Positions 29,792 through 33,615 of a stretch of DNA of 64,000 bases are shown here, in pieces; within the stretch, counting starts at the first letter, position 1; every line of letters starts with the position of its first letter. The stretch is from positions 1 to 64,000 of the forward strand of contig NZ_JAJLPA010000014.1 of the NCBI RefSeq assembly GCF_025548555.1. Reading direction: 5' to 3'. Source of the stretch: Sphingomonas sp. A2-49 (GTDB lineage Bacteria > Pseudomonadota > Alphaproteobacteria > Sphingomonadales > Sphingomonadaceae). The position numbers and the translations under genes were made by a program. The notes under the pieces are model-generated. The model was given only the letters and a program-made list of their open reading frames with translations. It was not told the origin of the DNA and did not search any database.

Positions 29792-30217
29792 TCAGTCGGG
29801 CTTGCGCTCGGCGGCGGCGCGCAGCGGGGTTACCGCATCGCGGCCGAATTGCATGATGAGTTCGCCGATCTCGCGCGCCTGATCCATCGACCGCTGGCCC
29901 TGGGCGCGCAGATAGTCGCCCTGGATCCGCATCACGTCGCTCAGGTCCTTGGCGCTCGCCGCCTCGCGCATCGCTTCGAACGCCTGATGCGAATTCTGCT
30001 CGGCCTGTTCGATGATCTTCAGCCCGATCGTCGCGCTGCCATCGGCGACCTTCTGTCCGGACGCGCGCATCGCCTCCCCGGCGCGGCGGGCAGGATCGAT
30101 GACATGGTCCGAAAAGCCCTCGCGCGCGCGGTTCGCGGCATCGCGCATCGCATCGCCGGCACCGCCACCAAAGCCACCGTTGCCCGTCGCTTCGCCGCCG
30201 TCGTTGCCATCCGCCAT
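29792..30217 (-). CDS. phasin-like protein
   Basis: Probably a phasin-family protein, which in alphaproteobacteria coats polyhydroxyalkanoate granules or acts more generally in the cytoplasm. The 141-residue product is Ala-, Gln- and charge-rich and almost wholly helical: a Gly-rich start (about 1-25), then long amphipathic helices with EQNSHQAFEAMREAASAKD and DYLRAQGQRSMDQAREIGEL, which match the phasin pattern well. GAGGAG lies 7 bases before ATG 30217, deciding the start over a GTG at 30223. No phaC or phaZ gene is in the window. Confidence 0.7.
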   Translation of the reverse strand: MADGNDGGEATGNGGFGGGAGDAMRDAANRAREGFSDHVIDPARRAGEAMRASGQKVADGSATIGLKIIEQAEQNSHQAFEAMREAASAKDLSDVMRIQGDYLRAQGQRSMDQAREIGELIMQFGRDAVTPLRAAAERKPD

Positions 30218-30361
30218 CGTCACTCTCCTCTATGCATCGATCCGCCGGCCGGGCGGCCGATAGCCTGCGATCCGGTCAACGTGCGATGCCCGGCTTTGCT
30301 CCCCGCCCCGTGGCGCGCGATCCCCGTTGCGTCGTGCCCTCGCGTCGGTAAAACGCCCGCG

Positions 30362-30550
30362 ATGGACACGCCCGAAGACCCGACCCAGCGCAGGATCCGC
30401 GGTGAATTGCTTCATCGCGCGGTGGCGCTGGGCGAGGAACTGATGCGGCTGTCCGACGACCTGGGCCTGTCGGTCGCCGGACTGCATATCTGCCAGGGTA
30501 TCGAACTGATGCGCGACGAGGCCGATCGCCTGCTCGACCGGTCCGCCTGA
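30362..30550 (+). CDS. small acidic hypothetical protein
   Basis: Unrecognised 62-residue product beginning MDTPEDPTQRRIRGELLHRA. It is soluble, helix-forming and acidic, with a central LMRLSDDLGLSVAGLHI segment. No strong Shine-Dalgarno is visible and the frame extends upstream without good start signals. It faces the wHTH gene ending at 30564 and diverges from the phasin-like gene. Support is its protein-like composition compared with the Arg-rich shadow frames around it. Confidence 0.5.
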   Translation: MDTPEDPTQRRIRGELLHRAVALGEELMRLSDDLGLSVAGLHICQGIELMRDEADRLLDRSA

Positions 30551-30563
30551 CCGACCGGCGGCG

Positions 30564-31031
30564 TCAGGCGTCGCCGATGCAGCGCAGCACCAGCACCGTG
30601 CCCGCTTCGGTGAGCGACACCGCCGGTGGCCCCTCGCCGCCGATCCTGCGGACGAGGCCACGCTCGATCAGCACCTCGAGCCAGCGAACCGCGACCGCGG
30701 CGCGCACGCCCATGACGTCGGCGATCGCCGCCTCGGGCAGGGCGCGCCCCTCCTCGTAGGCGATGAACAGGTTGAGCAGCATGTCCCAGCCGGGCTCCCC
30801 GAACAATTCGGCGAGCGGGCCCGCCGCGGCATCGCGGCACCGGCGCTGCGCCAGCAGCGCGCGGGCGCGATCGGCGTCGTCGGGCTGTTCGGGTCCGGCG
30901 GGCACCGTCGCGACGATCTCGCCCCGCCCCCGCGCGCTCAGGTCGCGCAAACGGGCCAGCGTCGCCGCCAGCCGTTCATAGTCTTCCCGGTCGCGATCGT
31001 GCCAGCGTAACAGTCGGATATCGGCACTCAT
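30564..31031 (-). CDS. winged-helix (MarR-like) hypothetical regulator
   Basis: Probably a DNA-binding protein. The 155-residue product has an N-terminal helical region (about 1-70) and a C-terminal winged-helix-like part: ALPEAAIADVMGVRAAVAVRWLEVLIERGLV reads as the helix-turn-helix and recognition helix, followed by a wing RRIGGEGPPAVSLTEAG. ATG 31031 overlaps the stop of the membrane-protein gene by ATGA, so it is the last gene of the operon that begins with the LuxR-type regulator at 32606. Confidence 0.65.
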   Translation of the reverse strand: MSADIRLLRWHDRDREDYERLAATLARLRDLSARGRGEIVATVPAGPEQPDDADRARALLAQRRCRDAAAGPLAELFGEPGWDMLLNLFIAYEEGRALPEAAIADVMGVRAAVAVRWLEVLIERGLVRRIGGEGPPAVSLTEAGTVLVLRCIGDA

Positions 31032-31543
31032 GGTCGTTCGTCATCCGGATGGCGGAGCGGCGACCAGTCCCGGTCGCTGCCGAAGCGGGCGAGGCGATGG
31101 CGGTGCCGCCACGCACCGATCGCGAGGAGCGCGAGCATGGGATAGGCGATCTTGCTGCTCGCGCCGGCGTACATCCACGGCACCAGCGTCGGCTGGAACG
31201 CCTTCACGCCATGGATGGCGATGGTGATGAGGTGCAGCGCACTGACGTAGAGCGGCCAGTAGCGGTCGGCCCGCACCGCGATCCCCATCAGTCCCAACAG
31301 CATCAGCAGGTCGACCGACAGCAGCATCGGCTCCATCTGCGCAAAGGGACGCAGCGCGTTGTAGAACGGCGCCAGATAGGTCGCGACCGCGGCGGTCACG
31401 AACAGGAACGCCGTCCAGCGTTCGGGCGCGCCGCCGACCCGGACGGCATAGCCGCAGACCAGCGCGAGCACGACGTTGAACAGCGCGATGTGGATCATGG
31501 CTTGGCCGGCCAAAGGAGCAGTCTGGAGGCCAAGCCATGACAC
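31028..31543 (-). CDS. four-helix hypothetical membrane protein
   Basis: Family not recognised. The 171-residue product has about four to five membrane segments (near residues 17-35, 44-62, 74-88, 100-113 and 130-145) and a basic, polar C-terminal tail (HRHRLARFGSDRDW). It begins right after the stop of the 116-residue gene; a second possible start is ATG 31498 (MIHIALFN). It overlaps the wHTH gene downstream by 4 bases. The operon context suggests a membrane sensor or transporter, but no motif supports a specific job. Confidence 0.65.
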   Translation of the reverse strand: MSWLGLQTAPLAGQAMIHIALFNVVLALVCGYAVRVGGAPERWTAFLFVTAAVATYLAPFYNALRPFAQMEPMLLSVDLLMLLGLMGIAVRADRYWPLYVSALHLITIAIHGVKAFQPTLVPWMYAGASSKIAYPMLALLAIGAWRHRHRLARFGSDRDWSPLRHPDDERP

Positions 31544-31894
31544 CTAGGCGGCGACGCGCAGATGACTGACGTCGGCACCCGTCGGGGCGAATTCGGGCTT
31601 CGGCTTTTCGTCGCCGAAGCTCGTTTCGAACCCGATCTGCTTGCCCAGCTTCTCGATGATGCGGTGGCCGGCGACGGTATGACCGCGCGCGGTGCCGATC
31701 GCGAGAATCGCGTGGCCGAGAACCTCGAATGCCTGCTGGCCCGCGATCGCGGGCAGGTTGGCGGCGGAACGAGCGCGCGGCAGGGCGGCGAGCAGGTCGC
31801 CGCCGGTGGCGAACGCCTCGTCGAGTTGCGTTTCGAGCCGCCACAGCAGCTGCGCCACGGCATCGGCCGCGGCTTGCGTATTCGCGTAGGACAT
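31544..31894 (-). CDS. hypothetical cytoplasmic protein in the LuxR-type operon
   Basis: Unrecognised 116-residue soluble product, mostly helical, Ala-rich in its first half and more polar later (IIEKLGKQIGFETSFGDEK). The two halves look like an N-terminal helical bundle (about 1-70) and a short C-terminal extension. ATG 31894 is preferred, with GGAAAGG a few bases upstream; a GTG at 31900 is possible. It lies 37 bases after the LuxR-type gene and abuts the membrane-protein gene. Confidence 0.65.
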   Translation of the reverse strand: MSYANTQAAADAVAQLLWRLETQLDEAFATGGDLLAALPRARSAANLPAIAGQQAFEVLGHAILAIGTARGHTVAGHRIIEKLGKQIGFETSFGDEKPKPEFAPTGADVSHLRVAA

Positions 31895-31931
31895 AGCCAC
31901 CTTTCCACCCTGTCGGGCGCTTCCGTTGAAG

Positions 31932-32606
31932 TCAGGAAAGGCGTTGGGTCACGGCCTCGATCAGTCCCGTCAGCACCTGGAGGCCCGACATCAGCATGCC
32001 GAAACCGACGGCGATACCCAATGCGATGACCTGTATCCAGATCAGGCGGTCACCGACCGAAAGGTCGTTGTCCCTCTGTCCCTTCCGCCGGAAGGGCAAC
32101 CGTAGTTCCGGAGCGGGCCGCCTGGACGGCACCGCTCCGGAAACCACCGAAGCCCCGACGATCCCCTCGTCCGGCGACACGGCTGATGGCAGGGCGAGCG
32201 CCGGCTGGACCAGCCGCGCAGAATGCCCCCCGATTTTATCGGGGGCAGGAATCGTTGTTTCCGAATGACTTGCCGGCGATGGCCCCGCTTCGTGCGCGGC
32301 CCATTGCAGCGCCGCATCGCGCCGGTTGCGCGCGCCGAGGATCTTCACGGCATCGGTCAGATAGCCGTCGACGGTCGATTTCTCGATGCGGAGCGCGTCG
32401 GCGATCTCTTTCGATCCCTTGAGGTCGCGGACGCCACGCAGGCAGTCGCGATGACGCGGCGACAGGCGGTCGAACCGCGTCTGCGGCGCGGGCGCGCCAT
32501 CGGTCCGGGCGGCATGCCCCCCGTTTTCGCGCACATGGCCGCCGGACGGCACCGACGTGCCGTCGCCACGGCCTGCCGTAACCTGCTCCGTCTCGGCCGA
32601 CACCAT
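31932..32606 (-). CDS. LuxR-type HTH regulator with C-terminal membrane helix
   Basis: The 224-residue product has a disordered, Gly/Pro-rich N-terminus (1-45), a LuxR-type helix-turn-helix at about 48-105 (LSPRHRDCLRGVRDLKGSKEIA, then STVDGYLTDAVKILGARNRR), a Pro/Ser linker (about 110-178) and one strongly hydrophobic segment at about 189-212 near the C-terminus. No receiver or autoinducer domain is present. The layout suggests a membrane-tethered transcription factor. It is the first gene of a four-gene minus-strand operon (32606 down to 30564). Confidence 0.8.
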   Translation of the reverse strand: MVSAETEQVTAGRGDGTSVPSGGHVRENGGHAARTDGAPAPQTRFDRLSPRHRDCLRGVRDLKGSKEIADALRIEKSTVDGYLTDAVKILGARNRRDAALQWAAHEAGPSPASHSETTIPAPDKIGGHSARLVQPALALPSAVSPDEGIVGASVVSGAVPSRRPAPELRLPFRRKGQRDNDLSVGDRLIWIQVIALGIAVGFGMLMSGLQVLTGLIEAVTQRLS

Positions 32607-32728
32607 TACTCACCCGTTGCTCATCGCCGATTAGCACGATTTGACGGGCATGCCAGCGTAACCACCAGATCGGGTCAATCAATCGATCCTTTCGCCGCCG
32701 GGACCGGCCGTCCCGGCGCGCGTGCGGA

Positions 32729-33001
32729 TCAGGCCTTGCCGGTCTTGCGGGGCTTGGGCTTCGATGCGGTCGCCTTGCGGCCCCGGCGCGTGGCGACGGG
32801 TGGCTTGCGGCTGCGCAGCAGGGGCACCGCGATCGCCGCTGCCGCGCCGGCCAGCAACGTGCCGCCGATGGCGATCCAGGCGCCGGTACCGATCCCGCCC
32901 GCGGCGGGGGCGGCAGCGTGCGTGGCCTCGGCGGCCGGCGCCGTATCCTCGTGATGGGTCGGGCCGGCGTGTTTCATCACCGAACTCGGAATATGGGACA
33001 T
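32729..33001 (-). CDS. small single-pass membrane protein
   Basis: Unrecognised 90-residue product: a polar, His-rich start (MSHIPSSVMKH, HHED), an Ala/Thr linker, one membrane segment (about 37-58, Gly/Ala/Leu-rich) and a strongly basic tail rich in Arg, Lys and Pro. ATG 33001 is chosen because AAAGGA lies about 8 bases upstream. A good EcfG-type promoter lies 26 bases upstream (33052-33027), so it is probably a general-stress gene. Confidence 0.7.
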   Translation of the reverse strand: MSHIPSSVMKHAGPTHHEDTAPAAEATHAAAPAAGGIGTGAWIAIGGTLLAGAAAAIAVPLLRSRKPPVATRRGRKATASKPKPRKTGKA

Positions 33002-33026
33002 GGGCTGTTTCCTTTCAGCTGCTCCC

Positions 33027-33052
33027 AACCCCAGGCCGCGCGTCAATGTTCC
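33027..33052 (-). promoter_or_regulatory. EcfG-type promoter candidate for the 33001 gene
   Basis: On the minus strand GGAAC (33052-33048), a 17-base spacer and GGTT (33030-33027) match the consensus GGAAC-N16/17-CGTT apart from one base in the -10 box. It ends 25 bases before ATG 33001. Confidence 0.55.
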
Positions 33053-33072
33053 GCTGGCGGGGCGCGCGCGCC

Positions 33073-33615
33073 TCACCCGCGCCAGCGTCGCATCGCGCCG
33101 TCATAGGCGTCGGCCGCCGCCTGCCGCGCCGCGTCCAGGCGCTCGCGCTCGTCCTCCTGCTCGCGCTCCATCGTCCGTCGCCGCTTGGCGAGCGCCGTTT
33201 CCTCGGCGCGCAGCGCCCGCTGCGCGCTGCTGGCCCGGGCGGCCGCCTGCGTCACCGCTTCCTCCGCCGCGTCGAGGCGCGACCGGTCGGGCCTCGGCGC
33301 GCGGGCCTTCCGCACCGGCGCTGGTGCCGGGGCATCGGGTTCGGCCGCGTCGTGCGGGGCCGCCCGTCGCGTCGGGCGGGCGGCGGGCAGCGCCGCGATC
33401 TGTTCCGCCGCGGTACCGCGCGAGCGCTTGACGACCGTGCCGGGGCTGGCCAGCGGCGCGGCGGTCAGCGCGGGATCGTCGACGACCTCCGCGACCCCGC
33501 GCGCGAACAGGTCGTGCGTGCTGCCCCAGGCCGCCAGCGCCGCCTTCTGGCTCGTCGCCGCGACATAGGCGTCGTGGAACCCGATCGGGGTGCGATAGAC
33601 CTTGAGCTTCGCCAT
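33073..33615 (-). CDS. hypothetical protein with long charged coiled coil
   Basis: Unrecognised 180-residue product of the kind often annotated as cell-envelope or TolA-like in sphingomonads. The first 50 residues are compact (AKLKVYRTPIGFHDAYVAATSQKAALAAWG), followed by a Pro/Ala linker and a C-terminal coiled coil (about 118-175) rich in Arg, Glu and Ala. No signal peptide or membrane segment is seen. Start ATG 33615; an in-frame ATG at 33636 adds seven residues. It lies 71 bases upstream of the 33001 gene on the same strand and diverges from the L,D-transpeptidase. Confidence 0.65.
   Translation of the reverse strand: MAKLKVYRTPIGFHDAYVAATSQKAALAAWGSTHDLFARGVAEVVDDPALTAAPLASPGTVVKRSRGTAAEQIAALPAARPTRRAAPHDAAEPDAPAPAPVRKARAPRPDRSRLDAAEEAVTQAAARASSAQRALRAEETALAKRRRTMEREQEDERERLDAARQAAADAYDGAMRRWRG

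Follow-up and report, generated by a model that had tools for sequence, protein, structure and literature searches.

A predicted four-gene operon in Sphingomonas sp. A2-49 (3.93-Mb genome, 54 contigs) raises the question of what a LuxR-type regulator that lacks a receiver domain and ends in a predicted membrane helix does in the company of a small soluble protein, a multi-helix membrane protein and a winged-helix protein. The operon lies in a stretch of 64,000 nucleotides (contig NZ_JAJLPA010000014.1, positions 1 to 64,000), which we refer to as the window, and the original prediction, made from the letters of the sequence, suggested that the four genes form a self-contained membrane sensing and switching system with no match to a known one. 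The genes, termed LuxR-TM, sol, mem and wH in their order on the minus strand, and the elements within and between them are as follows.

31932..32606, minus strand: LuxR-TM, 224 aa, a GerE-type helix-turn-helix regulator without a receiver and with a predicted tail anchor
32310..32468, minus strand: GerE/LuxR helix-turn-helix of LuxR-TM, residues 47-99, from the Pfam scan
31989..32045, minus strand: predicted C-terminal membrane segment of LuxR-TM, residues 188-206, mean hydropathy 2.23
31544..31900, minus strand: sol, 118 aa, soluble protein; an ATG start at 31894 would give 116 aa
31492..31543, minus strand: intercistronic RNA hairpin between sol and mem, with the mem ATG within its 3' arm (z=-4.45)
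31028..31498, minus strand: mem, 156 aa from the ATG or 171 aa from a GTG at 31543, five-helix membrane protein according to its predicted model
30564..31031, minus strand: wH, 155 aa, MarR-like winged-helix protein, 4-nt overlap with mem

The genes had been described as following one another with near-zero spacing, which is true of mem and wH, whose overlap consists of the 4 nt ATGA, but not of LuxR-TM and sol, which stand 31 nt apart. A distance of 0 between sol and mem requires the GTG at 31543 to be the start of mem; measured to the ATG at 31498, the distance is 45 nt, filled by the hairpin. Comparison with relatives makes the ATG the likelier start, because one orthologue (L205) carries an in-frame stop in the stretch between the two codons and in another (L207) the mem frame opens only past that stretch. 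Among the matches found, the mem genes of named organisms closest to this one are those of Sphingomonas aquatilis, S. melonis and others, with identities of 65-72%. Upstream of LuxR-TM, positions 32729-33076 of the window (minus strand) encode, by our own reading of the sequence, a small basic protein with one hydrophobic stretch. The DNA upstream of LuxR in several orthologues resembles this segment, S. parapaucimobilis carries a 66-aa gene at the matching position, and the small basic protein is possibly the product of a fifth gene of the locus.

LuxR-TM matches the GerE helix-turn-helix above the Pfam cut-off (E=1.6e-7), with a sub-threshold match to sigma-70 region 4 beside it and no other domain above cut-off. 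The same scan detected neither a receiver domain nor the autoinducer-binding domain PF03472, so that the predicted LuxR helix-turn-helix without a receiver stands as described, and assignments to the NarL/FixJ two-component regulators and to the quorum-sensing LuxR proteins were rejected for want of the respective domain. The helix-turn-helix is followed by a variable linker and, close to the C-terminus, by a single hydrophobic segment. By hydropathy prediction, this segment is C-terminal in 93 of the 96 regulators of the family, in line with the claim that the regulator ends in a single membrane helix; the other three are open frames in which LuxR-TM continues into sol, and there the segment is internal. 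Mean pairwise identity across 10 orthologues is 82% in the helix-turn-helix region (residues 46-107), 77% over residues 187-209 and 46% in the linker, and by this measure the anchor looks to be more than a mere greasy tail. In three groEL-type loci (L126, L132, L146), where LuxR-TM and sol share one open frame, sol retains its own Met with a Shine-Dalgarno-like GGGGAG or GGGGAAG upstream, and both a fusion and a separate start of sol are therefore possible. If the two are truly fused, sol would come to lie beyond the membrane, on its outer face; translation of sol from its own Met would avoid this.

The second and third proteins resist assignment to any family. The prediction of a soluble second protein of no known family was borne out, as sol shows no membrane segment and no family match above the cut-off in Pfam or NCBIfam, nor any in PHROGs, and sol and mem together yielded nothing above the cut-offs of Pfam, NCBIfam, PHROGs and PADLOC. 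The best stray family matches were E=0.0012 for one mem protein of 26 and E=0.0042 for one sol protein of 26, and sequence-profile searches of the PDB gave chance-level matches only (best E=0.0039 over 24 positions for mem and E=0.032 for sol). The AlphaFold2 model of mem (mean pLDDT 93.4) predicts five helices of membrane-spanning length (residues 2-21, 24-42, 57-76, 81-101 and 118-139) and an additional short helix (107-116), which agrees with the multi-helix membrane protein originally proposed. The sol model (mean pLDDT 86.4) consists of a two-helix hairpin (3-44 and 53-86) with a loose tail. Fold searches with the two models returned no match at E<=0.001, and since the VIA-align rows were made up of helical bundles and long helices from many unrelated proteins, no fold is assigned to, or excluded for, either.

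Whether the four genes belong together is a question that their relatives can answer. The neighbourhood survey that the original prediction called for found LuxR-TM, sol and mem recurring together, and a failure of these genes to co-occur in relatives was not seen. A mem relative is present in 80 of 149 genomes of the family, and the 29 loci found through mem (L028-L056) all carry LuxR and, with one exception (L040), sol (28/29). A sol relative occurs in 91 of 121 genomes of the genus, at 137 listed places (one to four per genome); in a sample of 56 of these places, chosen by hand down the list, both LuxR and mem were present every time (56/56), sol forming a separate frame in 53 and lying in frame with LuxR-TM in three. 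Among the best-scoring 30 places matched by a LuxR profile across the order, mem was present in 30/30 and sol in 29/30 (absent in L187). These three seed sets overlap, in that 10 of the 30 LuxR-seeded places are also among the 29 mem-seeded ones and one of the 30 is the window. All four genes occur in the same order in nine of nine named records, and when LuxR-TM and wH were used to search the A2-49 genome and the sequence around their shared place was inspected, a second complete copy came to light, again in this order, on contig C12 beside the plasmid replication genes RepC and RPA. One record with a Sphingomonas-type locus is titled Arthrobacter sp. TPD3018 (L201, QDFQ01000003.1), a title that is, given this locus, probably wrong.

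Across the class, a mem relative was found in only 6 of 289 genomes, namely the A2-49 genome itself, one of the same genus, two others of the same family and two of another family (f63). One of the two f63 loci (the pair L224, L225) has the arrangement sol-sol-mem-mem and the other sol-sol-mem, and a LuxR match sought within 6 kb of each was absent from both. Elsewhere, the first of these f63 genomes carries LuxR-sol-mem (L071) and a LuxR-mem pair without a sol match (L070). In L224 and L225, the sol and mem genes sit behind two genes that, on our own reading, resemble PaaI-type thioesterases. Another locus (L158:4960-8153) has four tandem mem genes behind a single LuxR-TM and a single sol, and this arrangement, together with the sol-sol-mem-mem locus, fits a view of sol and mem as a working unit of varying copy number.

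The fourth gene behaves differently from the other three. The wH gene was present in 12/29 mem-seeded, 46/56 sol-seeded and 8/30 LuxR-seeded loci, the first and last of these counts being taken within short flanks of 1.5 kb and the second being based on a single module from each locus (L142 counts through its second module, which is truncated where the retrieved stretch stops, although its first has wH). The predicted four-gene set thus does co-occur in relatives, but its conserved core is LuxR-TM, sol and mem, with wH optional. As for the protein itself, the winged-helix designation holds to the extent that wH belongs to a family with more members in the genome, its matches to MarR being sub-threshold (PF01047, 18.1 bits against a cut-off of 24.6). 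Six further members (E up to 2.6e-4) lie outside both modules, on contigs C53 (two), C9, C3, C13 and C25. One of these six lies, by our own reading of the sequence, near chemotaxis-like genes (L025).

The core is also unequal in how closely its members have diverged together. Across 67 loci, pairwise distances correlated most strongly between sol and mem (r=0.826), followed by LuxR and sol (0.618) and LuxR and mem (0.530), and wH correlated with the other members at r 0.58-0.60 (54 loci); none of these values was reached in 2000 permutations. Much of this correlation is accounted for by whole modules having descended together. When the comparison was limited to pairs in which each protein differed by more than 50%, sol and mem kept r=0.517, against r -0.131 to 0.028 for LuxR-sol, LuxR-mem and all pairs with wH. 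The loss of these other correlations at larger distances may mean that LuxR and wH can be exchanged, or else that the distances are saturated.

The junction between sol and mem carries an additional element, an RNA hairpin whose stem reaches 16 pairs at most and which also has an inner stem and, in its loop, a conserved GCUCC motif. The hairpin is present in all 10 of the close orthologues examined (the window and nine named loci). An alignment of 12 rows, comprising these ten and two loci added because both showed the hairpin (L107, L121), has 92.5% of its cells paired; shuffles averaged 89.4% (sd 0.8), and none of the 500 reached the observed value. The covariation score was 0.232 vs 0.188 in shuffles (1/500), cells changed on both sides numbered 9 vs 4.6 (5/500), pairs changed on both sides numbered 5 vs 3.2 (44/500), and slid controls were at most 42.5% paired; as the sequences are related, these statistics are indicative only. 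The mem frame is kept out of all or part of the hairpin by the stop in L205 and the later opening in L207, which argues that the structure is not just a by-product of coding. A search of positions 30000-33200 against Rfam at E 1 gave no match. A dispersed repeat element was considered and rejected, since the exact pattern occurs at one place only in the A2-49 genome and model hits of 70 bits or more are confined to this junction, in 4 of 61 genomes of the genus; three weaker model hits (E 5e-4 to 0.009) lie elsewhere in two other genomes (G435, G460) and in A2-49 itself.

The hairpin is not general to all copies of the module: over all 95 sol-mem junctions, 36 score 10 or more and 59 score under 10, and 34 have z below -2. 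Among copies at the acnA locus, two (L116, L119) gave a weak match to the hairpin model at the same junction and three (L057, L115, L129) gave none. Nonetheless, strong stems (score 10 or more) were found at 20/64 junctions after sol vs 12/109 control same-strand junctions (Fisher p=0.0011), and elsewhere in the module at 2/67 junctions after LuxR and 1/66 after mem. With the six window-type copies removed, 14/58 junctions after sol still score 10 or more (p=0.024), and 8/58 vs 4/109 controls score 12 or more (p=0.020). Because the loci are not independent, this is moderate evidence that strong stems of differing sequence are enriched at the junction in other copies as well. The loop (31510-31521) contains CUCCUUU, a sequence also present at the 3' end of 16S rRNA, and pairing of this motif with Shine-Dalgarno sequences of the operon is possible; the L206 orthologue departs from the loop sequence. 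By analogy with the puf operon, in which, according to the text consulted, an intercistronic RNA structure sets protein ratios (PMC11354728), the hairpin probably sets the ratio of mem to the regulator and sol.

The module recurs on chromosomes, plasmids and viruses of Sphingomonas-type bacteria. Copies occupy an acnA/phasin/RND-efflux locus, annotated as such in L057 and likewise the setting of the window, and others stand beside ribosomal protein genes (rplK/A), groEL and lon-hupB, according to our own reading of clustered sequences. PLSDB holds 14 plasmid records with a mem relative, and the five regions inspected all carry LuxR, sol and mem. On a Sphingopyxis plasmid (L060), a GntR gene and genes for lasso-peptide biosynthesis come after the module. 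Two copies lie upstream of quorum-sensing-type genes, one before luxR-luxI-PhyH-GntR (L134:7007-9983) and the other before luxR-GntR (L135:2705-4255), and both neighbouring luxR genes match PF03472. A search with mem of a prophage led to 6 IMG/VR contigs, all with the four genes; they are 6 of 16 stretches matching a pattern, and two of them (L193, L194) may be one and the same phage. Directly upstream of the module and on the same strand, an HTH_3 (CI-like) gene was found in 9/9 phage or prophage loci with DNA at that point (L058, L149, L150, L192-L197; in a tenth, L198, the sequence ends there), the HTH_3/repressor-type matches having been made on two of the nine and the other seven assigned by similarity to those two. 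The CI-like gene is presumed to be the lysogeny repressor; in L196 a second repressor-like gene is encoded on the other strand. The phage setting is supported by tail genes, which are present in L150 and L196.

How the module itself is controlled was approached through the roughly 160 bases before LuxR in 67 loci. No shared dyad or operator was identified in these 67 upstream regions, and the enriched k-mers were mostly GATC-containing, which we read as a composition effect. Inverted 9-bp repeats had a mean best of 7.21 matches vs 6.91 (sd 0.07) in shuffles, with 28% vs 15% of regions reaching 8 or more, and these could be either operators or terminators of the preceding gene. Direct 9-bp repeats of the type found in LytTR Regulatory Systems (LRSs) averaged 6.37 of 9 at best vs 6.21 (sd 0.08), with 4% vs 3% at 8 or more.

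This last comparison bears on the known system that the module most resembles in outline. In the text consulted on the LRSs HdrRM and BrsRM, a DNA-binding regulator without a receiver is followed by a multi-helix membrane protein in one operon, several copies per genome can occur and the signals are largely unknown (PMC6193735). A further mark of LRSs is that the membrane protein inhibits the regulator. The module shares this gene order, with a membrane protein gene downstream of a receiver-less regulator on the same strand. It differs in that its DNA-binding domain is of the GerE/LuxR type, in the predicted membrane anchoring of the regulator itself, in the nearly constant presence of sol as a third protein and in the lack of clear enrichment of LRS-type direct repeats; because the Pfam scan detected no LytTR domain, the module is not filed as an LRS despite the similar layout. 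Regulators of the ToxR/TcpP/CadC type are DNA-binding proteins tethered by a single helix, with small partner genes adjacent; they bind DNA through an OmpR-type winged helix, and most have a sensor domain in the periplasm. LuxR-TM is like them in its single predicted membrane helix and unlike them in its LuxR helix-turn-helix and in having, in the window, only 18 residues past the predicted segment. With the sphingomonad LuxR/LuxI regulators and LuxR solos, as described in the text consulted (PMC4288048), LuxR-TM shares a GerE-type helix-turn-helix, and two copies of the module adjoin genuine autoinducer-binding luxR genes; unlike quorum-sensing LuxR proteins, LuxR-TM lacks the autoinducer-binding domain, has its helix-turn-helix toward the N-terminus and bears a membrane anchor. 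The main text of PMC4288048 contains neither the word transmembrane nor the word membrane in its treatment of sphingomonad LuxR proteins. None of the named systems that were tested fits, as the original prediction had anticipated. Searches of the open-licence literature for the set, for membrane-bound regulators of its type and for analogues returned no description of the module, and what is in print beyond that literature may differ; within the open-licence literature and databases searched, the composition of the module and the sol and mem families appear to be undescribed.

What, then, does the module do? The reading that we favor, to which we would assign an even chance, is that it is a portable transcription switch, tethered to the membrane and governed by sol and mem as a pair. 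Its starting points are the linkage of the genes, the predicted tail anchor, the co-variation of sol and mem, the hairpin of the close orthologues and the spread over chromosomes, plasmids and phages; from these, we infer the topology, the contacts between the proteins, sensing, the sign of control, the targets and the role of the hairpin. The C-terminal helix of LuxR-TM would anchor the regulator at the inner membrane, with the DNA-binding domain facing the cytoplasm. The five-helix mem would act as the membrane control element and sol as its dedicated partner, linking mem to the regulator. A change sensed by mem, by sol or by the membrane itself might then alter dimerization or DNA access of the tethered helix-turn-helix, which in turn would control its own operon and neighboring genes. 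The optional wH could serve as a second, soluble arm or as a feedback regulator, and the hairpin would adjust how much mem is made relative to the regulator and sol. Against such a switch stand the sol and mem loci without a detectable LuxR in the two f63 genomes and the L070 locus, where LuxR and mem occur without a sol match.

Those same f63 loci speak for the main rival, in which sol and mem do the actual work of the module, with a function such as membrane exclusion, immunity or a stress response, and LuxR-TM and wH do no more than regulate their expression. This reading, which we hold to be rather unlikely, would explain carriage by plasmids and by prophages next to a CI-like gene, behind which the module directly follows in every phage or prophage locus with DNA there, and it accords with sol-mem being the tightest co-varying pair and with copies adjoining plasmid replication genes and a lasso-peptide cluster. 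It sits less well with the many copies beside housekeeping genes (acnA by annotation; rplK/A, groEL and lon-hupB by our own reading), with the PADLOC models, which match the module only in the helix-turn-helix range (E 0.0036 and 0.0056), and with the conserved membrane anchor of the regulator, which it leaves unexplained. Still less probable is a role for sol as an antiactivator of the tethered LuxR, after the manner of TraM and TraR, with mem releasing or recruiting sol. TraM is linked to mobile elements, and copies of the module beside luxR/luxI in L134 and luxR in L135 would suit such a role. In the text consulted, TraM is an allosteric regulator of TraR, a LuxR-type protein, and sol is likewise a small predicted helical hairpin; yet TraM also contacts the N-terminal domain of its target, a domain absent from LuxR-TM (PMC3246441). 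Although TraM (2q0o_C) appears among the weak fold matches of sol, it does so at rank 44 and at chance level (E=6.1), 102 of 235 chains scoring Z of 8 or more against the sol model, so that the likeness in fold is at noise level. Moreover, sol has no sequence match to TraM, and the whole genome yielded no match to Prok-TraM (PF09228) at E 10. A TraM-like role for sol is a lead suggested by this analogy. That the four genes share no function and are simply neighbors, a pair of unrelated regulators beside a pair of unknown proteins, is scarcely credible; the optional nature of wH and its six relatives outside both modules would fit, but the linkage counts from three seeds and the permutation results already contradict this view for LuxR, sol and mem, and it is possible for wH.

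Membrane-tethered regulators and operons that pair a regulator with a membrane protein are kinds already known. A broader proposal, which we put forward tentatively and with more doubt than confidence, is that the module represents a new class of membrane signaling, in which a sensor pair of undescribed families, sol and mem, would act with a tail-anchored LuxR-type factor, a hairpin setting the proportion of mem in some copies. This class would have become widespread among sphingomonads, with copies on chromosomes, on plasmids and in temperate phages, the phage copies being joined to a CI-like gene and perhaps tying prophage behavior to the state of the host membrane. If the switch is real, it would constitute an unrecognized route from membrane to transcription in an environmentally important group of bacteria, and because phages carry the module right behind a CI-like gene, it becomes possible to test whether a signal from the membrane serves prophages in making a decision or in modifying the host.
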